NCBI RefSeq assembly: GCF_000224415.1 | Contig: NZ_AFXQ01000029.1 | Location: 1-37,303 of the forward strand | Source of the DNA: Citricoccus sp. CH26A | GTDB taxonomy: Bacteria; Actinomycetota; Actinomycetes; Actinomycetales; Micrococcaceae | DNA: 37,303 bases | Direction: 5' to 3' | In this document: piece after piece, positions 20,017 through 26,915 of the stretch | Numbering within the stretch: position 1 is the first letter of the stretch | Layout of the letters: the number at the start of each line of letters is the position of its first letter | The notes under the pieces: model-generated | Database searches by the model: none | What the model was told of the DNA's origin: nothing | Seen by the model: only the letters and a program-made list of their open reading frames with translations | Made by a program: the position numbers and the translations under genes

Positions 20017-21280
20017 GCGGACGGCACCCCCACCTCGGAGTCGACGGCGGCCACGGTGGGCCGCACGGTGCCGTCCCGCATGACCTTGACGCAGCAGTTG
20101 GGCCGGCAGACGTCGTACCACGGGCCGAAGCAGCCGACGGCGGCGCGGCCCTCGCGGGTGCCCAGCCGTTCCTCGACGATGTCCACCAGGCCGGACACGA
20201 ACGAGGGGTGGGTGCCCGGCGTCGGGGTCCGGCGGAAGGCCAGCCCGAGCTCCTCACAGGTCTCCCGGGCCTCGGTGTCCAGGTCCCAGACGACCTCCAT
20301 GTGGTCCGAGACGAAGCCCAGCGGGATGACCACGACCCCGGCCAGCGGCTCCGTGCCGTCCTCGCCGGACCGCGCGGCCAGTTCCTCGATGGCGTCGTTG
20401 ATGTCCGGCTCCAGCCACGGGACGTGCGGGGCGCCGGAGCGGGACTGGTAGACCAGCGACCAGTCGATGCCCTCGGCCTCCGGCACGAGCTTGAGGACCT
20501 CCTCGGCCACGTCCAGGTGCTGGGCGGAGTAGACGTCCGCGCCGTTGCCCTCCCCGGGCTTCAGCCCGGTCCTCTCCTGCAGCTCCGCGGCCAGCGGACG
20601 CGGGCCGGCGGCCTCGGCGTCGGCGGTGGGGATGGAGTGGGTGGCGAAGAACAGGTGCAGCCGGCCCCGGCCCGGCCGGCCTCGGCGAGCTCGGCACGGA
20701 TCTCGGCCAGCCCGGTGCGCAGTCCCTCGGCGAAGGGCTCCACGAAGCCGGGGTGGTTGAAGTACTGGCGGACCTTGTCGGCCTCCAGCTTGCCCTCCAG
20801 ACCGGTGGAGCGCAGGGCCATCCCCAGGTCCTCGCGGTACTGGCGGCAGGAGGAGTAGCAGGAGTAGGCCGAGGTGGTCACGGTCAGCAGCCGGCGGTGG
20901 CCGTCGGCGTGGATGCGCTCCAGCGTCTCGGGAACGTAGGGGTCCCAGTTGCGGTTGCCCCAGTAGACCGGCAGGTCGATGCCGCGGGCGGCCAGCTCGG
21001 CCTCGATCGCGGCCTTCAGCTCGCGGTTCTGCGCGTTGATGGGGCTGACCCCGCCGTTGGCCCGGTAGTGGGTGGCCACCTCCTCGAGCCGCTCGTCCGG
21101 GATGCCCCGGCCCCGGGTGACGTTGCGCAGGAAGGGGATCACGTCGTCCTGGCCCTCGGGCCCGCCGAAGGAGGCCAGCAGCACGGCGTCGTAGGCCTTG
21201 GGCGCCATGACCCCGTTCTCGTCGTACCCGGTGCGCGGGTCGAAGGACTGCCCGGCGGTTCCGGTGGTGTTCTCGCTCAT
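20013..21280 (-). pseudogene. hemH: Coproporphyrin ferrochelatase, reading frame broken by an apparent 1-nt deletion
   Basis: Inserts iron into coproporphyrin III in the coproporphyrin-dependent pathway (CpfC). The frame from ATG 21280 encodes a normal N-terminal part ([36 protein letters not shown]) as far as [15 protein letters not shown]. It then enters nonsense near 20665. The expected continuation [12 protein letters not shown], with the catalytic His, is in the -1 frame and runs through WLEPDINDAIEEL (catalytic Glu) to stop 20013. The break lies in GC-only sequence (about 20659-20682). One added base gives about 422 residues, a normal length. Cysteines in SAYSCYSSC and the C-terminal CFG...CRPNCC fit the [2Fe-2S] cluster of actinobacterial ferrochelatases. 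ATG 21280 overlaps the hemQ stop. The enzyme is normally required and every neighbour is intact, so a sequencing error is at least as likely as real loss. Confidence 0.85.
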
Positions 21281-22005
21281 CAGGCCAGCACCTCTGCGAT
21301 CTCGGCCGAGGAGATCAGGCGTCCGGTGTAGAACGGGACCTCCTCGCGCACGTAGTGACGGGTCTCGTTGTTGCGCAGGTGGCGCATCATGTCCACCAGG
21401 TGGTTCAGCCTCGGCGCCTCAAGCCCGAGCAGCCACTCCCAGTCGTTCAGGGCGAAGGCGCTCGTGGTGTTGGCCCAGACCATGGGGAAGTCCCGGCCCA
21501 GCAGCCCGTGGTCCTTCAGCATCCGGCCGCGCTCGGCCGGCTCCAGGGTGTACCAGTCGTAGGAGCGGACGAAGGGGTAGAAGCACAGCCACTTCAGCGG
21601 CTCGCGGCCCATGGCGAACGCGGGCACGTGGTCCTTGTTGAACTCGGCCATCCGGTCCGAGCCCATCGCGGACAGCACGATCTGCGTCCCGGCCAGCAGC
21701 TCGGTCCGGCGCAGGGTCCTGATGGCCGCCTGCAGGTCCTCGGGGACGTGACCGTACATCCACACCATGACGTCCGCGTCGGCGCGCATGCCGGAGACGT
21801 CGTAGGTGCCCCGGACCGTCACGCCGCGCTCGGCGAGCCCGGCGATCGCGGCGTCGAACTGCTTCACCGCCCGCTGGCGCTCGGCCTCGGTGTGTGCCCC
21901 GCCCTGGCCGGACCCGTTCCGGGCGAAGACGGTGTAGGTGGTGAACCACTCGACGTGCTCGGCGCTCCCGGCCTCGGGGTCCGCTGCTGCCTGGTTCTCG
22001 GTCAT
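21280..22005 (-). CDS. hemQ: Coproheme decarboxylase (HemQ/ChdC, chlorite dismutase-like)
   Basis: Last enzyme of the coproporphyrin-dependent pathway: peroxide-driven decarboxylation of two propionates of coproheme to give heme b. 241 residues, within the family range. The heme-binding region has [17 protein letters not shown], carrying the Tyr that acts in catalysis, then MLKDHG, supplying the proximal iron-ligand His, and a C-terminal [16 protein letters not shown]. It lacks the arginine-loop context of true chlorite dismutases and lies among heme genes, so HemQ is the right call. The ATG at 22005 has AGGAG 8 nt upstream. It leads hemQ-hemH-hemC-hemD, and a 16-bp inverted repeat lies 83 nt upstream. 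Confidence 0.94.
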
Positions 22006-22088: not shown

Positions 22089-22104
22089 TCTACAGCCGGT
22101 AGAA
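22089..22104 (-). promoter_or_regulatory. Inverted-repeat operator candidate upstream of hemQ operon
   Basis: The plus-strand sequence is TCTACAGCCGGTAGAA. With the preceding T it forms the inverted repeat TTCTAC-N5-GTAGAA. Fifteen of 16 bases match the element between hemE and hemA. On the hemQ strand it contains TGTAGAAG, a possible -10 region, so a bound protein would be expected to repress. It lies in the 119-nt hemY-hemQ gap. Confidence 0.6.
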
Positions 22105-22124
22105 CGGCGTGTCCAGCCTACCCC

Positions 22125-23615
22125 TCAGGTCTGGTCCGCACCGATCCGGCGCCGGACGTCCCCGACGACGGCGGCCAGTCCGGTCCCGGCCAGCCAGGCC
22201 CCGACGGCGTCCAGGCCGTCCTGCCCGTCCAGCCAGTCCCGGACGCTGCGCACGGCCGCCCGGTGGGCGGTGGTCGCCGCCGGCAGGGCGGCTCGCCAGC
22301 GCACCACGAAGGAGTGCACCACCGCACCGGCCAGGTCCACGCCGGTCAGCGTGCTCGCGTCGGCCACGGCCCGGGCCAGCAGTTCCCGGTCGCCGGTGCC
22401 GTATCCCGGGGTGGAGGCGTCCGGGGCGTCCGTGACGCGCCCGTAGGACAGGCGCAGCACGTGCCGGTGCGGTGCCGTCCGTACCCAGTCCCACTTGGCG
22501 GTCACGTGGGTCATCGCCTTGGCGCCCACGACGTCGGCCGGCACCTGCGGGGAGACCAGCAGGCCGGTCCCCCGCGGGGCGGCGTCGAGCCCGGCGGCGT
22601 CGGCCACCAGGGTCACCAGGGCGACCCCGGCCCCCTCGGCCGGGCGGTCCGCCGCGGTCAGGGCACCGTCGGCCACGGGGACGAGCAGGTCCCAGGCGGC
22701 CGGCCCGTCGGTGGCGAGGACGACGCGGCCGGCGGACAGGGTCTCGTCCGTGCCCTCCTGCGTGCGCGCCGATACGGTCCACCCGTCCGCGGCACGGTCC
22801 AGCCCGGTCGCGCGGATCCCGGTCCGGATCGAGACCCCGGCGTCCCGCAGGGCCTGGACCAGGGCCGCGGTCAGGGTGTTCATCCCCCCGCACAGGGAGG
22901 CCACGAGGGCACCGGGCGGGGCGGCGGCGCGCCGGGCGGCCACCGCCCGGGCCAGCGAGCCCTCGGCCACGAGCGCCTCCAGCAGGCCCGGGGCGACGGT
23001 CCGCAGGTCGAGGGTGTCCGGGTCTGCCGAGTGCACTCCGGCGACGACCGGCGCCACGAGGACCTGCAGCACGCCCTCGCCCATCCGGTCCCGCACCACC
23101 GCACCGACGGTGACCGGGCCGCCGTCGAGCAGGGCCTGCTCCCAGCGCCCCACCGGCAGGGCGAGGTCCCGGTGCGCCCGCTCCAGCGCGTCGGCCCCCA
23201 GGGCCTCGGCGACCTCGGGGGCGTCGAGGTCCCCGGGGATGCCCAGGATCCCGACGCGCGGGGAGCGGACGGCCCGCCCGCCGCCTCCGGCCGGGTCCGG
23301 CAGGTACATCCACGAGCCCACGGGGTTCGGGCTCACGACGGCGTCGGAGAGCCCGAGCTCCTCGACCAGCGCGCGCACGGCGGGGGTGCGGACCGCGAAC
23401 GACTCGGCGCCGGCGTCGAGGACCAGTTCCGCGCCGTCCGGCAACGGGGCGCGGACGGGCGCGACGCAGCCCCCCAGGGTGGCCGTGGCCTCCAGCAGGG
23501 TCACCTCGTGCCCGGAGCGGGTCAGCTCCCAGGCGGACAGCAGCCCGGCGATCCCACCGCCGACGACGACGGCCCGGCGCGGACCGCGGCGGTGCGCCTC
23601 GGTGCCGGACCTCAC
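22125..23615 (-). CDS. hemY: Coproporphyrinogen III oxidase (CgoX/HemY type), FAD-dependent
   Basis: Flavoenzyme of the protoporphyrinogen oxidase family, 496 residues. In monoderm bacteria this enzyme oxidises coproporphyrinogen III to coproporphyrin III. The N-terminal dinucleotide-binding motif is VVVGGGIAGLLSAWEL, followed by LLEATATLGG and LDAGAESFAVR. GGMNTLTAALV and a C-terminal GTGLAAVVGDV FAD-contact region also fit. The presence of hemQ and absence of a protoporphyrin route in the cluster support the coproporphyrinogen assignment. GTG at 23615 overlaps the hemE stop as GTGA, so hemE-hemY is translationally coupled. The name cgoX is the current alternative. Confidence 0.93.
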   Translation of the reverse strand: MRSGTEAHRRGPRRAVVVGGGIAGLLSAWELTRSGHEVTLLEATATLGGCVAPVRAPLPDGAELVLDAGAESFAVRTPAVRALVEELGLSDAVVSPNPVGSWMYLPDPAGGGGRAVRSPRVGILGIPGDLDAPEVAEALGADALERAHRDLALPVGRWEQALLDGGPVTVGAVVRDRMGEGVLQVLVAPVVAGVHSADPDTLDLRTVAPGLLEALVAEGSLARAVAARRAAAPPGALVASLCGGMNTLTAALVQALRDAGVSIRTGIRATGLDRAADGWTVSARTQEGTDETLSAGRVVLATDGPAAWDLLVPVADGALTAADRPAEGAGVALVTLVADAAGLDAAPRGTGLLVSPQVPADVVGAKAMTHVTAKWDWVRTAPHRHVLRLSYGRVTDAPDASTPGYGTGDRELLARAVADASTLTGVDLAGAVVHSFVVRWRAALPAATTAHRAAVRSVRDWLDGQDGLDAVGAWLAGTGLAAVVGDVRRRIGADQT

Positions 23616-24733
23616 GGCTGCAGCGAGTGGATGAGCCCGACGACGCGGGTCAGGACCTCGGGGTCCGTGGTCGGCGGCACGCCGTGGCCGAGGTTCACGA
23701 CGTGCCCGGGGGCGACCCGGCCGGTCTCGACGACCTCGCGGACGTGGGCCTCGAGCACCTCCCAGGGAGCGGAGAGCAACGCGGGGTCGATGTTGCCCTG
23801 CAGGGGCACCGCACCGCGGCCGTCCGCTCCCGGGCTGGCCTGCAGGCGGCGGTGGGCCTCGTCCAGGGGGAGCCGGTAGTCGACGCCCACCACGGAGGCG
23901 CCGGCGTCGCGCATGGCGGGCAGGATCTCCCCCGTGCCGGTGCCGAAGTGCACGAGCGGCACCCCGGTCTCACCGGCCAGGTCCTGGACGTGGGACAGGG
24001 CCCGGGCTGAATGGGGCTGGACGTACTCCAGGTAGTCGGCCAGGGAGAGTGACCCGGCCCAGGAGTCGAAGAGCTGGCCGGCCGAGGCCCCGGCCTCGAT
24101 CTGGGCGCGCAGGAACCGGCCCGAGGCGTCCGCGGCCCACTCGGCCAGCGCGTTCCAGGTCTCCGGGTCGGCGTGCATCATGGTCCGCGGGCCCAGGTGA
24201 TCGCGCGAGGGGCGGCCCTCGACCATGTAGGCGGCCACGGTGAACGGCGCCCCGGCGAAGCCGATCAGGGGGGTCGAGCCGAGTTCGGCCACGGTCAGCC
24301 GCACGGCCTCGCGGATGGGTTCCAGGGCCTCGTCCGTCAGCTCGGGCAGGGCCGCGACGTCCTCGGCGGTGCGCACGGCGGCGCCCAGGACGGGACCGGT
24401 GCCGGGCACGATGTCGACGTCGACGCCGGCCAGCTTCAGCGGGATGACGATGTCGGAGAAGAAGATGGCGGCGTCCACGTCATGCCGGCGCACGGGCTGC
24501 AGCGTGATCTCCGAGGCCATCGCGGGCCTCAGGCAGGACTCCAGCATGTCGGTGCCCTCACGCAGGGCCCGGTACTCCGGCAGGGAACGCCCTGCCTGGC
24601 GCATGAACCACACCGGCTTCCGGGACGGGGTACCGCCGCGGTAGGCGGTGATCAGCGGTGACGACGCCGTCGAGCGGGCGGGGTCCGTGGTGATCAGCGG
24701 GTGGTCGGCGGGCAGGGCGGTGGAGGAAGGCAT
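23612..24733 (-). CDS. hemE: Uroporphyrinogen decarboxylase
   Basis: Removes four acetate carboxyls from uroporphyrinogen III to give coproporphyrinogen III. 373 residues. The signature KPVWFMRQAGRSLPEYR near the N-terminus contains the substrate-binding arginines, and later GFAGAPFTVAAYMVEG and LVHFGTGTG also match. ATG at 24733 is preferred because GGAAG lies about 10 nt upstream; ATG at 24742 has the same GGAAG almost touching it. An AAGAAT hexamer ends 7 nt before ATG 24733, so a second, leaderless promoter is possible. It leads hemE-hemY and is divergent from hemA across a 94-nt gap. Confidence 0.95.
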   Translation of the reverse strand: MPSSTALPADHPLITTDPARSTASSPLITAYRGGTPSRKPVWFMRQAGRSLPEYRALREGTDMLESCLRPAMASEITLQPVRRHDVDAAIFFSDIVIPLKLAGVDVDIVPGTGPVLGAAVRTAEDVAALPELTDEALEPIREAVRLTVAELGSTPLIGFAGAPFTVAAYMVEGRPSRDHLGPRTMMHADPETWNALAEWAADASGRFLRAQIEAGASAGQLFDSWAGSLSLADYLEYVQPHSARALSHVQDLAGETGVPLVHFGTGTGEILPAMRDAGASVVGVDYRLPLDEAHRRLQASPGADGRGAVPLQGNIDPALLSAPWEVLEAHVREVVETGRVAPGHVVNLGHGVPPTTDPEVLTRVVGLIHSLQP

Positions 24734-24800
24734 GGCGCCCATTCTTCCATCGAACCCGCCCGTGTTTCCGCTGACCGGCAGGTCCGGTGGCCCCTCATGC

Positions 24801-24816
24801 TCTACAGGCGGTAGAA
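24801..24816. promoter_or_regulatory. Inverted-repeat operator candidate in the divergent hemE/hemA promoter region
   Basis: TCTACAGGCGGTAGAA, with inverted arms TCTAC-N5-GTAGA, lies 11 nt before the hemA GTG and 67 nt before the hemE ATG. It overlaps TAGAAT (24812-24817), the likely -10 of hemA, and carries TGTAGA on the hemE strand. One base differs from the element upstream of hemQ. The position suits a single regulator controlling both directions. Confidence 0.62.
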
Positions 24817-24827
24817 TCGCTCGCATT

Positions 24828-26198
24828 GTGACTTTGTTTTCCCTGGTTGCCTCGCACACCGACCTTGACCTCGACACGGTGGCGCAGTTGAGCAACGGCA
24901 CCGACGAGGTCGCCTCAGCCATCCCCACCTCGACCGCCCAGGGGGCGGTCGTGCTGGCCACCTGCAACCGGGTGGAGATCTATGCCGAGGCCCCGGACGA
25001 GGGATCCGTGGACCGGGCCCGCCAGGAGCTCGTCGAGGCCATCGCCCGGGGATCGGGCCTGTCCACGGACGCCGTCGCCTCCTCGTTCCGGACCCTCGCC
25101 GGCGACGCGGCGGTCCGGCACCTGTTCGAGGTCGGCGCCGGGCTGAAGTCGGCCGTCGTGGGAGAGCGCGAGATCGCCGGCCAGGTCCGGCGCGCGCTCG
25201 GCGCCGCCCGGGAATCCGGCACCGCCACCGGGACCCTGACCAAGCTCTTCGAGTCCGCCACCCGCACCGCCAAGGACGTGGGCACGCACACCGCCCTGGG
25301 CACGGCGGGCCGCTCGATCGTCTCCGTGGCCCTGGACCTGGCCACCAGCATGCGGGCCGGCACCTCGGTGGTCGGCGCCCAGCGTTTCTGGCAGGACGCC
25401 AACATCCTGCTGATCGGCACCGGGGCCTACGCGGGGACCACGCTGGCCCAGCTGGCCGACCGCGGCGCCGCCAACGTGGGCGTGCACTCGTCCTCCGGCC
25501 GCGCGGAGGCCTTCGTCGCCGACCGTGGTGGCTGGGCCCTGGCCCTGGGGGGCGAGAAGATCCACGGGGCCATCGCGGAGGCGGACGTGATCATCGGCTG
25601 CTCCGGTGGTGACCGACGGCTCGAGGCCGAGACCCTGCGGCGCCTGCGCGAGGGTGTCACCGCCCGGTTGACCGTCCTGGACCTGGCCCTGACCCATGAC
25701 TTCGACCCCGCCATCGCCGACCTGCCCGGCGTGGACCTCATCACCCTGGAATCGGTGAAGATGGCCGCGCCGGAGGGACAGCAGGCCGCCCTGACCGCCG
25801 CCGCGCAGCTCGTGGACGGCGCCGTGGACGGCTTCCTGCAGGAGCGCAAGTCCCGCAGCGCCAACGAGGCCATCGTGGCCCTGCGCCGGCACACACAGCG
25901 GGTGCTGGACTCCGAGATGCAGCGGGTGCGCAGCCGGCACGGGTGCACCGCGGCCGCCGAGGAGGTCGAGTTCGCCCTGCGTCGCATGGTCCGGCAGATG
26001 CTCCACGAGCCCACGGTCCGCGCCAAGGAACTCGCCGCCGAGGGTCGCCTCGATGAGTACGAGAACGCGCTGAACGTCCTCTTCGGCCTGGACGTCTCGC
26101 CCGCCACGGCGAACGGCGCCCCGGGGTCCTGCCCGGTCGGCGACCCGCGCGAGGACGCCCTGCCGGACGCCCTCGCCGCCTCGCCCCGGATAGCCTGA
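24828..26198 (+). CDS. hemA: Glutamyl-tRNA reductase
   Basis: First committed step of C5 heme synthesis: NADPH reduction of glutamyl-tRNA to glutamate-1-semialdehyde. 456 residues. The catalytic cysteine is C46 in LATCNRVEIY. GEREIAGQVRRAL is the characteristic active-site helix, and ILLIGTGAYAGTTLAQL is the NADPH-binding site. The C-terminal dimerisation helix runs to NVLFGLDVS. GTG at 24828 gives the expected start (MTLFSLVASH) and lies 10 nt after the putative -10, so the mRNA leader is very short. HemA is often controlled by heme-dependent proteolysis; nothing in the sequence shows that here. Confidence 0.95.
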   Translation: MTLFSLVASHTDLDLDTVAQLSNGTDEVASAIPTSTAQGAVVLATCNRVEIYAEAPDEGSVDRARQELVEAIARGSGLSTDAVASSFRTLAGDAAVRHLFEVGAGLKSAVVGEREIAGQVRRALGAARESGTATGTLTKLFESATRTAKDVGTHTALGTAGRSIVSVALDLATSMRAGTSVVGAQRFWQDANILLIGTGAYAGTTLAQLADRGAANVGVHSSSGRAEAFVADRGGWALALGGEKIHGAIAEADVIIGCSGGDRRLEAETLRRLREGVTARLTVLDLALTHDFDPAIADLPGVDLITLESVKMAAPEGQQAALTAAAQLVDGAVDGFLQERKSRSANEAIVALRRHTQRVLDSEMQRVRSRHGCTAAAEEVEFALRRMVRQMLHEPTVRAKELAAEGRLDEYENALNVLFGLDVSPATANGAPGSCPVGDPREDALPDALAASPRIA

Positions 26199-26247: not shown

Positions 26248-26294
26248 CCTCGACACCGTCCTGACCGGGCGTCCCCGTGCAGAAAGGCCTCACC

Positions 26295-26915
26295 GTGACC
26301 TCCAGCCCCATGCGCCAGTCCCGGCTGCCCCGCGAGGAGCGGCGGCGCCAGCTCCTGGACGCCGCGCAGCAGGTCTTCGTGGAGCACGGCTACCACGACA
26401 CCTCCATGGACGACATCGCCGTGGCGGCCGCCGTGTCCAAGCCGGTGCTCTACCAGCACTTCCCCGGCAAGCACGAGCTCTTCCTGGACCTGATGGACAC
26501 CCAGCTGACGCTCCTGCAGGGCGCCCTCTCCGACGCGCTGGGTTCGACCACGGACAACAAGGAGCGGGTCCTGGCCACCATCAGGGCCTGCTTCCAGTTC
26601 GTGGACCGGCCGGACCGTGCCTACCGCCTGATCTTCGACTCCGGGCTGAACAACGACCCCGAGGTCGCGGGCCGGATCGAGGAGATGGACCACCGCTTCG
26701 CCACGGACATCGCCGAGATCATCGCCGCGGACACCCGGCTCTCGCGGGAGGAGGCGCTGCTGCTGGGCCACGGCCTGGCCGGGCTCGCGCAGTCCGCGTC
26801 CCGCCACTGGGCCGGGCAGGCCGGCCAGGAGGGACGCCCGGACCTGGAGAGCGCCGCGGACCTCGCCTTCCGGCTGGCCTGGCGTGGCATCAGCCGGTTC
26901 CCCAAGGAGGGCTGA
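26295..26915 (+). CDS. TetR/AcrR-family transcriptional regulator
   Basis: 206-residue repressor-type regulator. The N-terminal helix-turn-helix domain is canonical: RRRQLLDAAQQVFVEHGYHDTS, then DDIAVAAAVSKPVLYQHFPGKHELF as the recognition region. The C-terminal ligand-binding domain is a generic TetR_C type; its ligand cannot be predicted. GTG at 26295 is preferred because AAAGG lies 7 nt upstream; GTG 26277 and ATG 26310 are alternatives. It follows hemA by 96 nt and precedes a DUF3107 gene. The TetR-DUF3107 pairing resembles Rv3208-Rv3208A of M. tuberculosis. An autoregulatory palindrome lies upstream, and a role in heme gene control is a hypothesis. Confidence 0.9.
   Translation: MTSSPMRQSRLPREERRRQLLDAAQQVFVEHGYHDTSMDDIAVAAAVSKPVLYQHFPGKHELFLDLMDTQLTLLQGALSDALGSTTDNKERVLATIRACFQFVDRPDRAYRLIFDSGLNNDPEVAGRIEEMDHRFATDIAEIIAADTRLSREEALLLGHGLAGLAQSASRHWAGQAGQEGRPDLESAADLAFRLAWRGISRFPKEG

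Follow-up and report, generated by a model that had tools for sequence, protein, structure and literature searches.

A palindrome upstream of heme genes in Citricoccus sp. CH26A as a candidate operator of a BlaI-type repressor of respiration, heme and NO-defence genes

Two palindromes that precede heme-synthesis genes in Citricoccus sp. CH26A are probably operators of a winged-helix repressor of the BlaI/MecI/CopY fold, and BlaI dimers would accordingly repress a regulon of respiration, heme and NO-defence genes, a reading to which we give a probability of roughly 0.85. As far as comparison of sequences can go, this is based on the sites themselves, the constant N5 spacer, the position of the sites in front of genes, their presence together with one BlaI lineage and the nature of the neighbouring genes.

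Results

Two palindromes in the heme-gene window

The window, i.e. the whole stretch of 37,303 nucleotides that was analysed, contains two copies of an inverted repeat (Table 1). Its full form, TTCTAC-N5-GTAGAA, covers 17 bp, extending the repeat first described by one base on the left. Both sequences were found where the first-pass annotation had placed them, and its distances to the downstream genes were borne out, as was its remark that the second copy overlaps the likely -10 of hemA, the hexamer TAGAAT. The 16-mer originally described matches only the two known places at up to three mismatches, and hemB is therefore without a site, as had been noted. The minus-strand operon behind operator 1 is hemQ-hemH-hemC-hemD. 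Since TAGAAT lies 10 nt before the hemA GTG, hemA looks leaderless, and a -10 in a like position is kept by the leaderless hemA promoters in most of the 30 hemA loci shown.

Table 1. Operators, promoter element and genes in the window, and the BlaI-type gene located outside it
Feature	Position	Strand	Remarks
Operator 1, TTCTACAGCCGGTAGAA	22088..22104		0 mismatches to TTCTAC-N5-GTAGAA; 83 nt 5' of hemQ ATG at 22005
Operator 2, CTCTACAGGCGGTAGAA	24800..24816		1 mismatch; divergent hemE/hemA promoter, 67 nt to hemE ATG at 24733
hemQ (coproheme decarboxylase)	21280..22005	-	ORF; first gene behind operator 1; match in 100/100 family genomes
hemY	22125-23615		ORF after hemE; named by eye and from the first-pass annotation
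hemE	23612..24733	-	ORF; first minus-strand gene behind operator 2; named as hemY; second in-frame ATG at 24742
-10-like TAGAAT of hemA	24812..24817	+	read from sequence; overlaps operator 2
hemA	24828..26198	+	ORF, GTG start at 24828; first plus-strand gene behind operator 2; match in 100/100 family genomes
TetR-like gene	26277-26915		ORF after hemA
BlaI-type gene (protein P0001)	G000:C64:89792-90130 (= L013:6293-6631)		outside the window; divergent from cydABDC

Site counts and controls

The form TCTACN5GTAGA occurs twice in the window and in none of 100 dinucleotide-preserving shuffles. The full motif was found in exact form five times in the whole genome (reversed-pattern control, 0): before hemQ, before hmp, before the CopC/DyP operon and twice between cydABDC and the BlaI-type gene. 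Across 100 genomes of the family 471 exact sites stand against 39 for the reversed control, and changing the spacer to 3-4 or 6-7 bases leaves 5 and 6 sites, respectively. A chance origin of the palindromes was rejected on the shuffles and on this excess over the reversed pattern and over other spacers. The shorter TCTACN5GTAGA is not enriched genome-wide (8 sites, 8 in the reversed control), nor is the 17-mer at up to two mismatches (68 versus 115 in the control), and only exact or near-exact full-length sites therefore carry weight. Seven places in the genome have one mismatch, two of them inside genes; the hemE/hemA, atp, SURF1 and cytochrome c maturation sites of the genome each have one. 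The 187 distinct exact sites prefer TTCTACR-N3-YGTAGAA, and TACA-N3-TGTA is a common core.

Genes of respiration or heme synthesis turn up repeatedly behind the sites. Among the targets are cyd, hmp, cytochrome c maturation, ctaA, SURF1 and CopC genes, together with cytochrome oxidase and sdh. The proposal of an operator dedicated to heme has to be abandoned in view of the first six of these groups, and a heme-only regulon is ruled out by the non-heme neighbours. No respiratory role could be named for several site neighbours, e.g. those in L232, L241, L248 and L251.

The BlaI-type gene and its neighbour

The genome has one gene with the PF03965 domain, and it adjoins the twin cyd sites. Its product, P0001, scores 72.2 bits against PF03965 (curated cut-off 22.6), and the only match in the PDB was 2g9w, which we take to be BlaI (Rv1846c) of Mycobacterium tuberculosis. 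P0001 has no cysteine and hence no Cys-X-Cys motif, and its score against TIGR02698 is 22.3 bits, under the cut-off of 121.95; copper sensing of the CopY/TcrY type through a C-terminal Cys-X-Cys was rejected on these grounds. After blaI lies a gene for a short putative BlaR-like zinc metalloprotease of 324 residues with the motif HERAH, which matches M48 with 43.7 bits (cut-off 20.3) and M56 with 29.3 bits, just under the cut-off of 31. No penicillin-binding sensor domain was found by Pfam in these 324 residues. The first-pass annotation knew of no described heme repressor with this site; a candidate can now be named in the BlaI-type repressor, encoded beside cydA and with the site in its own promoter.

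Co-occurrence of the sites with the BlaI lineage

In the 100 family genomes, where a PF03965 match better than 1e-10 was taken as strong, at least two exact sites were present in 84 of the 91 genomes with such a match; the exceptions were six genomes with one exact site and one, G090, with none. Among the nine genomes lacking a strong match, eight had no exact site and one had a single site. All 42 loci of this BlaI lineage have a site in the 500 bp 5' of the gene, blaI promoters holding two or three of them, and none of the 16 other PF03965 loci has one; on a tree of 54 the label "lineage" or "other" changes once. The promoter site is also present where the stretch shows no cydA (L166, L172, L185, L219, L323 and L325). 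Another 72 loci from named genomes gave 65 exact sites, one with one mismatch and six without a site; many come from the same species as the family set, and these loci are therefore not independent of it.

Conservation at the heme loci

A shared operator through which one dimeric regulator could act on the heme operons had been proposed, and conservation at orthologues supports this for hemQ: among 51 loci from 32 genera, 21 genera have a 5' site with at most one mismatch, and it is exact in 19 of 30 loci. The restriction of the proposal to heme did not stand. The hemQ site is absent in 11 of the 32 genera, including g10, g16, g17, g20, g22, g23 and g30; in the genera named here the BlaI lineage is present and carries sites of its own.

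The hemE/hemA site fared less well, being in the same place in only 6 of 30 hemA loci: the genome itself (one mismatch), G060 (two mismatches) and four genomes of genus g12 (one mismatch). It is absent from three of the four other genomes of the genus (g1), and exact in G008 (L244), which lies outside the 30 loci. The hemE/hemA site is lineage-restricted and poorly conserved.

Other actinobacterial families

In families f4 and f24 sites were found at cyd-blaI, hmp and hemE, and exact sites lie in hemE-hemY promoters of a distant family (L337, L344). An Rrf2 gene with a site was seen in another family (L346), and loci L338, L339, L340, L343 and L354 of f24/f4 showed no clear link. When up to one mismatch was allowed, the core CTAC-N5-GTAG was found no more than 250 bp from BlaI-like genes of other families at 14 of 21 loci, taken as the best of each genome from 30 BlaI-like loci (f24 3/3, f10 6/8, f23 2/2, f26 2/2, f33 1/1, f25 0/4 and f19 0/1).

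A related pattern, TACKAC-N5-GTAGTA, was scanned in six genomes of f10, f33 and f26 and exceeded its control only slightly (forward, 19 versus 7; reverse, 11 versus 11). In the 16 regions read, the neighbours included cydA four times and atp three times, the latter as atpI-like genes in three genomes (L390, L391 and L396; f10 has both atp and cyd sites). No respiratory neighbour could be named in 7 of the 16 regions (L386, L387, L393, L394, L395, L397 and L398).

Discussion

In the mechanism that we propose, BlaI dimers would bind the 17-bp palindrome (core CTAC-N5-GTAG), cover the promoter and so repress hemQHCD, cydABDC, hmp, the CopC/DyP operon and blaI itself. HemEY and hemA are probable further targets, as are SURF1, cytochrome c maturation and atp through sites with one mismatch. 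The putative membrane protease, lacking a beta-lactam sensor domain, may lift repression when respiration is disturbed, with NO, a block of the oxidase, low oxygen and shortage of heme or copper as candidate signals. Derepression would then raise heme supply together with bd oxidase and NO defence. Against this reading speak the genera without a hemQ site, the single mismatches in several sites of the genome and the location of two such sites inside genes, the seven genomes that have a strong PF03965 match and fewer than two exact sites, and the site neighbours for which no respiratory role could be named.

It is improbable that another dimeric regulator, of the HrrA/ChrA or Rrf2/NsrR type or the TetR-like protein of the window, binds the motif while BlaI merely adjoins cyd. 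The targets do resemble those ascribed to HrrSA of Corynebacterium glutamicum in a review (PMC10991733), the TetR-like gene follows hemA, and the Rrf2 gene mentioned above has a site; however, site counts track the BlaI gene, other PF03965 genes have no site, and the blaI promoter keeps its site in stretches without cydA. Still more improbable, in our judgement, is that the palindrome is only a promoter element, a two-way extended -10 that owes its symmetry to RNA polymerase. The first-pass annotation had itself raised the extended -10 as a refuting case, and for the hemA copy it fits in part, as TAGAAT at operator 2 would serve well as the -10 of a leaderless hemA and most of the 30 hemA loci keep the -10 alone. 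It leaves unexplained the spacer fixed at five bases and the link to BlaI, with which the site is lost; also against it are the multiple copies of the site at blaI promoters and the hemQ site, kept without being an obvious -10.

A view to be taken more seriously, though we consider it unlikely, is that operator 1 is real and that operator 2 resembles it only by chance, around the hemA -10. Operator 2 has one mismatch and is missing in three of the four other genus g1 genomes, and two of the seven places with one mismatch in the genome are inside genes. On the other side, the same place is occupied in G060, in the four g12 genomes and, exactly, in G008, and the hemE-hemY promoters of the distant family have exact sites.

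The candidate BlaI resembles M. tuberculosis BlaI in being a PF03965 repressor, and its sole PDB match is 2g9w. The M. tuberculosis BlaI regulon presumably also includes Rv1456c, and its ABC-ctaA layout resembles that of L230 and L238. Mycobacterial BlaI binds before the Rv1303-atp operon and represses it (PMC12565901), in agreement with the sites before atpI-like genes. Mycobacterial BlaI (Rv1846c)/Rv1845c has been described for atp, sigC and the beta-lactam response (PMC12565901, PMC8265638, PMC5874750); in contrast to the regulon proposed here, the available parts of these papers mention no control of heme synthesis, cyd or hmp, and no link of BlaI to these was found in the excerpts of the open-licence literature searched.

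Staphylococcal BlaI/MecI with BlaR1/MecR1 are similar in repressor family and in operators of the TACA/TGTA kind (PMC7253601), here with a TACA-N3-TGTA core, and the gene beside blaI here probably likewise encodes a membrane metalloprotease; they differ in that the putative protease here is without a penicillin-binding sensor, in the spacer and outer bases, and in the respiratory targets found here. The CopR/CopY copper repressors belong to the same repressor family and have a similar operator, RNYKACANNYGTMRNY, while here the half sites are one base further apart, and P0001 differs from them in its lack of cysteine and low TIGR02698 score. HrrSA shares the kind of target genes and is a two-component system, unrelated to PF03965. 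It is reported to act on four heme-synthesis genes of C. glutamicum (PMC10991733) and to have terminal oxidases among its targets (PMC7337898).

It is tempting to speculate that BlaI and its BlaR-like partner without penicillin sensor form a conserved sensor of respiratory state across Actinomycetes, in which the protease would read failure of the respiratory chain (NO, a blocked oxidase, low oxygen, or lack of heme or copper) and so simultaneously release from repression cytochrome bd, ATP synthase, cytochrome biogenesis, NO dioxygenase and the coproporphyrin-dependent heme pathway. We put this forward tentatively, because of the cyd-blaI, hmp and hemE sites in f4 and f24 and the sites at cydA (four) and atp (three) in f10, f33 and f26. 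If true, the beta-lactam role of such BlaI proteins would be secondary.

That mycobacterial BlaI represses the atp operon was already known; the link to heme synthesis, cyd and hmp that the sequences point to appears to be new. BlaI is not in Table 3 of a 2024 review of regulators of the coproporphyrin-dependent heme pathway in Gram-positive bacteria (PMC10991733), and the same table lists as unknown which regulator lies behind the combined increase of heme genes and low-oxygen oxidase in M. smegmatis. The operator of the candidate regulator is here defined to the base, and the proposed BlaI would link heme supply with terminal oxidases, cytochrome assembly and NO defence throughout a bacterial family. 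Our data suggest that a repressor which takes its name from penicillin resistance may in Actinomycetes be mainly a regulator of respiration.

The palindrome in the Citricoccus genome

A sequence check confirmed the positions of the two 16-bp inverted repeats TCTAC-N5-GTAGA that the first-pass annotation had noted before two heme operons. The window of 37,303 bases has two copies of the pattern, and 100 shuffles produced none; lengthened on the left by one base, the repeat becomes the 17-bp palindrome TTCTAC-N5-GTAGAA. Operator 2 overlaps a -10-like TAGAAT, the end of which lies 10 nt before the hemA GTG. In the genome of strain CH26A (3,466,927 bases, 67 contigs) the exact 17-mer occurs at five sites, against none for the reversed control pattern, and seven further places carry one mismatch. 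In this genome there was no excess of the 17-mer at up to two mismatches (68 versus 115 in the control) or of the 10-letter core alone (8 versus 8). The reading of the repeats as a heme operator was too narrow, since the same operator also stands before hmp, cydABDC, cytochrome c maturation and CopC operons. In the window, hemH appears split across two frames, with the protein start in one and the remainder in the other, a pattern that either a sequencing error or a genuine frameshift could produce; a TetR-like regulator gene directly follows hemA.

Sites and related features (C, contig of the CH26A genome, C39 being the window contig; L, locus read in the genomes compared; f4, family of the same order; f24, another family)
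Feature	Location	Detail
Operator 1, exact	C39:22088-22104	before hemQ
Operator 2, one mismatch	C39:24800-24816	hemE/hemA
hemH	C39:20013-21280	minus strand
TetR-like gene	C39:26277-26915	plus strand
Exact site	C40:31392	operon of membrane protein, CopC and DyP peroxidase (Pfam CopC, Dyp_perox)
Exact site	C62:77203	flavohemoglobin hmp (Pfam globin with FAD and NAD domains)
Two exact sites, 35 bp apart	C64:89629 and 89664	between cydABDC and divergent gene (Pfam Cyt_bd_oxida_I)
PF03965 match (P0001)	C64:89798-90121	plus strand
One-mismatch site	C58	SURF1
One-mismatch site	C60	small membrane protein without Pfam family
One-mismatch site	C57	atpB, 198 bp away
One-mismatch site	C65	TlpA-CcdA-ResB-ResC operon
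One-mismatch places	C66 and C67	both within genes
Family site	L255	SURF1
Family site	L246	cytochrome oxidase subunit II
Family site	L256	succinate dehydrogenase membrane subunit
Family site	L233	CopC
Family site	L067	pyridoxamine-oxidase-like protein
Small membrane protein target	L011:4901-5323	relatives in L062, L070, L073, L078, L222, L225, L243, L250
CopC operon behind operator	L009:5971-9824	CH26A genome, with membrane protein and DyP
f4 sites	L347, L349, L351, L352, L355	between blaI and cydA
f4 site	L353	before cydA, BlaR-like gene next
f4 site	L348	before cydDC-like gene
f4 site	L350	before hmp
f24 site	L336	before cydA near divergent blaI
f24 sites	L337, L344	before hemE-hemY
f24 sites	L341, L342, L345	CopC
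f24 site	L346	Rrf2 gene
TACKAC-N5-GTAGTA	L388, L389, L392, L399	before cydA
TACKAC-N5-GTAGTA	L390, L391, L396	before atpI-like genes
TACKAC-N5-GTAGTA	L400, L401	before CopC or CopC-operon genes

A BlaI-type candidate regulator

The sole PF03965 (Penicillinase_R) match of the genome, P0001, adjoins the twin sites at cydABDC. It has 112 residues and scores 72.2 bits (cut-off 22.6), and its one match in the PDB is 2g9w (4e-21), which we take to be M. tuberculosis BlaI; the nearest BlaI proteins from named genomes, those of Citricoccus sp. WCRC_4 (98%) and of a MAG under the name Micrococcus (96%), point to Citricoccus or a close relative as the probable source of the window. The gene that follows codes for a BlaR-like membrane protein, about 324 residues long and carrying a HERAH motif, which matches M48 above the cut-off and M56 just under it and in which Pfam found no penicillin-binding domain. 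Sites before blaI are often paired or tripled, about 21-35 bp apart (C64:89629-89680 and other cydA-blaI stretches), suggesting that dimers may stack there.

Among 100 family genomes, taken from a larger set and spanning 32 genera, 91 carry the exact motif, with 471 sites versus 39 for the reversed pattern; the same arms gave 6 sites with spacers of 6-7 and 5 with spacers of 3-4. Of the 91 genomes with a PF03965 match better than 1e-10, 84 have at least two sites, six have exactly one (G011, G041, G044, G061, G065, G088) and G090 has none, while the nine without such a match have no site in eight cases and one site in the other. The association gives a Fisher's p of 6e-9, kinship being ignored and the absences being confined to three genera (g3, g5, g14). 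Four genomes of genus g12 (G012, G042, G066, G089) hold 9-15 exact sites each, the average being about 5, and the regulon seems, from these counts, to be enlarged there.

At 58 PF03965 loci, a subset of all matches picked by genus and score, the lineage of P0001 (49-92% identity, the gene itself aside) had a site no more than 500 bp upstream of the gene in 42/42 cases, exact in 41 and differing by one base in L174; none of the remaining 16 loci (30-47% identity) had a site 5' of the gene. Identity alone scarcely separates the two sets (47.3 versus 48.7%). In a tree of 54 of these loci (three lacked a called gene and one was too short) the site label required one change, with support of 87/83, and none of 500 shuffles was as low; several branches are long, that of L171 the longest. 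Among 72 loci from named genomes (Citricoccus, Arthrobacter, Pseudarthrobacter, Paenarthrobacter, Nesterenkonia, Galactobacter, Micrococcus, Brevibacterium, Pseudonocardia and Dietzia) the site is exact in 65 and off by one base in L326, and it is missing from six (L328-L333, 44-48% identity). Six blaI genes (L166, L172, L185, L219, L323, L325) carry the site although the stretch read around them showed no cydA.

Targets in the family and beyond

Upstream of hemQ, 33 of 51 loci have a site that is exact (26) or differs by one base, always within 150 bp of the start save in G027 (357 bp); the first 30 loci comprise 19 exact, 3 one-mismatch and 8 without. The site shared by the heme operons is conserved before hemQ, in 21 of 32 genera (among the 51 loci it was not found in g3, g5, g10, g11, g14, g16, g17, g20, g22, g23 and g30), and it is the hemA copy that did not hold generally, being in place in 6 of 30 loci (one mismatch in CH26A and the four g12 genomes, two in G060). 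Of the others, L161 has a site with one mismatch at a distance of 120 bp, L147 a poor one, and most retain just a -10 ahead of a leaderless hemA. Outside these 30, G008 has an exact site in the divergent hemA/hemE promoter (L244).

In 66 site-bearing regions, read with our own gene calls and named by eye unless Pfam is stated, hemQ recurs as a target. Others are hmp in 11 genomes (CH26A, G009, G063, G039, G025, G028, G060, G018, G013, G027, G022) and TlpA-type cytochrome c maturation operons in six (CH26A with one mismatch, G009, G063, G086, G060, G003; behind a phosphatase-like gene in three). In five, an ABC ATPase-permease-CtaA-like operon faces suf-like genes (L223, L230, L238, L245, L252; Pfam COX15-CtaA in L230). 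In nine of the genomes read, one target is a small membrane protein of a family with an SxKxPLxFS motif and no Pfam entry, possibly a new respiratory accessory protein. The targets of L255, L246, L256, L233 and L067 (see table) were met once or in few genomes. The site of L236 lies within a predicted gene, and the neighbours in L232, L241, L248, L251 and L227 (no Pfam match) had no nameable function.

Class-wide, 41 of 296 genomes carry the exact motif, chiefly in the own family, f4 and f24. Among 20 site regions read in the latter two, no clear link could be made for L338, L339, L340, L343 and L354. The site at the Rrf2-family gene of G186 (L346) is a hint that the repressor acts through a cascade on an Fe-S or NO sensor. 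In other families, the core CTAC-N5-GTAG (at most one mismatch) lies in the promoter of the best BlaI-like gene in 14 of 21 genomes, and TACKAC-N5-GTAGTA has 19 forward and 11 reverse matches in six of these, versus 7 and 11 in the control. Of 16 such regions read, places at blaI excluded, seven had no nameable gene behind the site. An operon resembling the CopC-DyP one was seen by eye in a distant family (L401).

Proposed mechanism

Mycobacterial BlaI is described as a repressor acting before the atp operon and is tied to sigC and the beta-lactam response (PMC12565901, PMC8265638, PMC5874750, PMC7924339); the sites before atpI-like genes agree with its published target, Rv1303-atp (PMC12565901). 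Its role as atp repressor is known already. Table 3 of a 2024 review (PMC10991733) makes no mention of BlaI as a heme-synthesis regulator, and among the papers listed in searches of the open-licence literature none connects BlaI with cyd, hmp or the heme pathway.

The operator is real and conserved, and most likely belongs to the BlaI-type repressor, with support at the sequence level shown for operator, spacing, placement and co-occurrence with the BlaI gene. BlaI dimers would bind the palindrome and repress by covering the promoter, as suggested by how near the site centres lie to the start codons (median distance 74 bp over 84 site-gene pairs, 63 within 120 bp), and the BlaR-like protease would relieve repression upon a signal. 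As the targets include bd oxidase, NO dioxygenase, heme synthesis and cytochrome assembly, they point more to respiratory or nitrosative stress as that signal than to heme feedback alone. Heme synthesis would most likely be one branch of a regulon for respiration.
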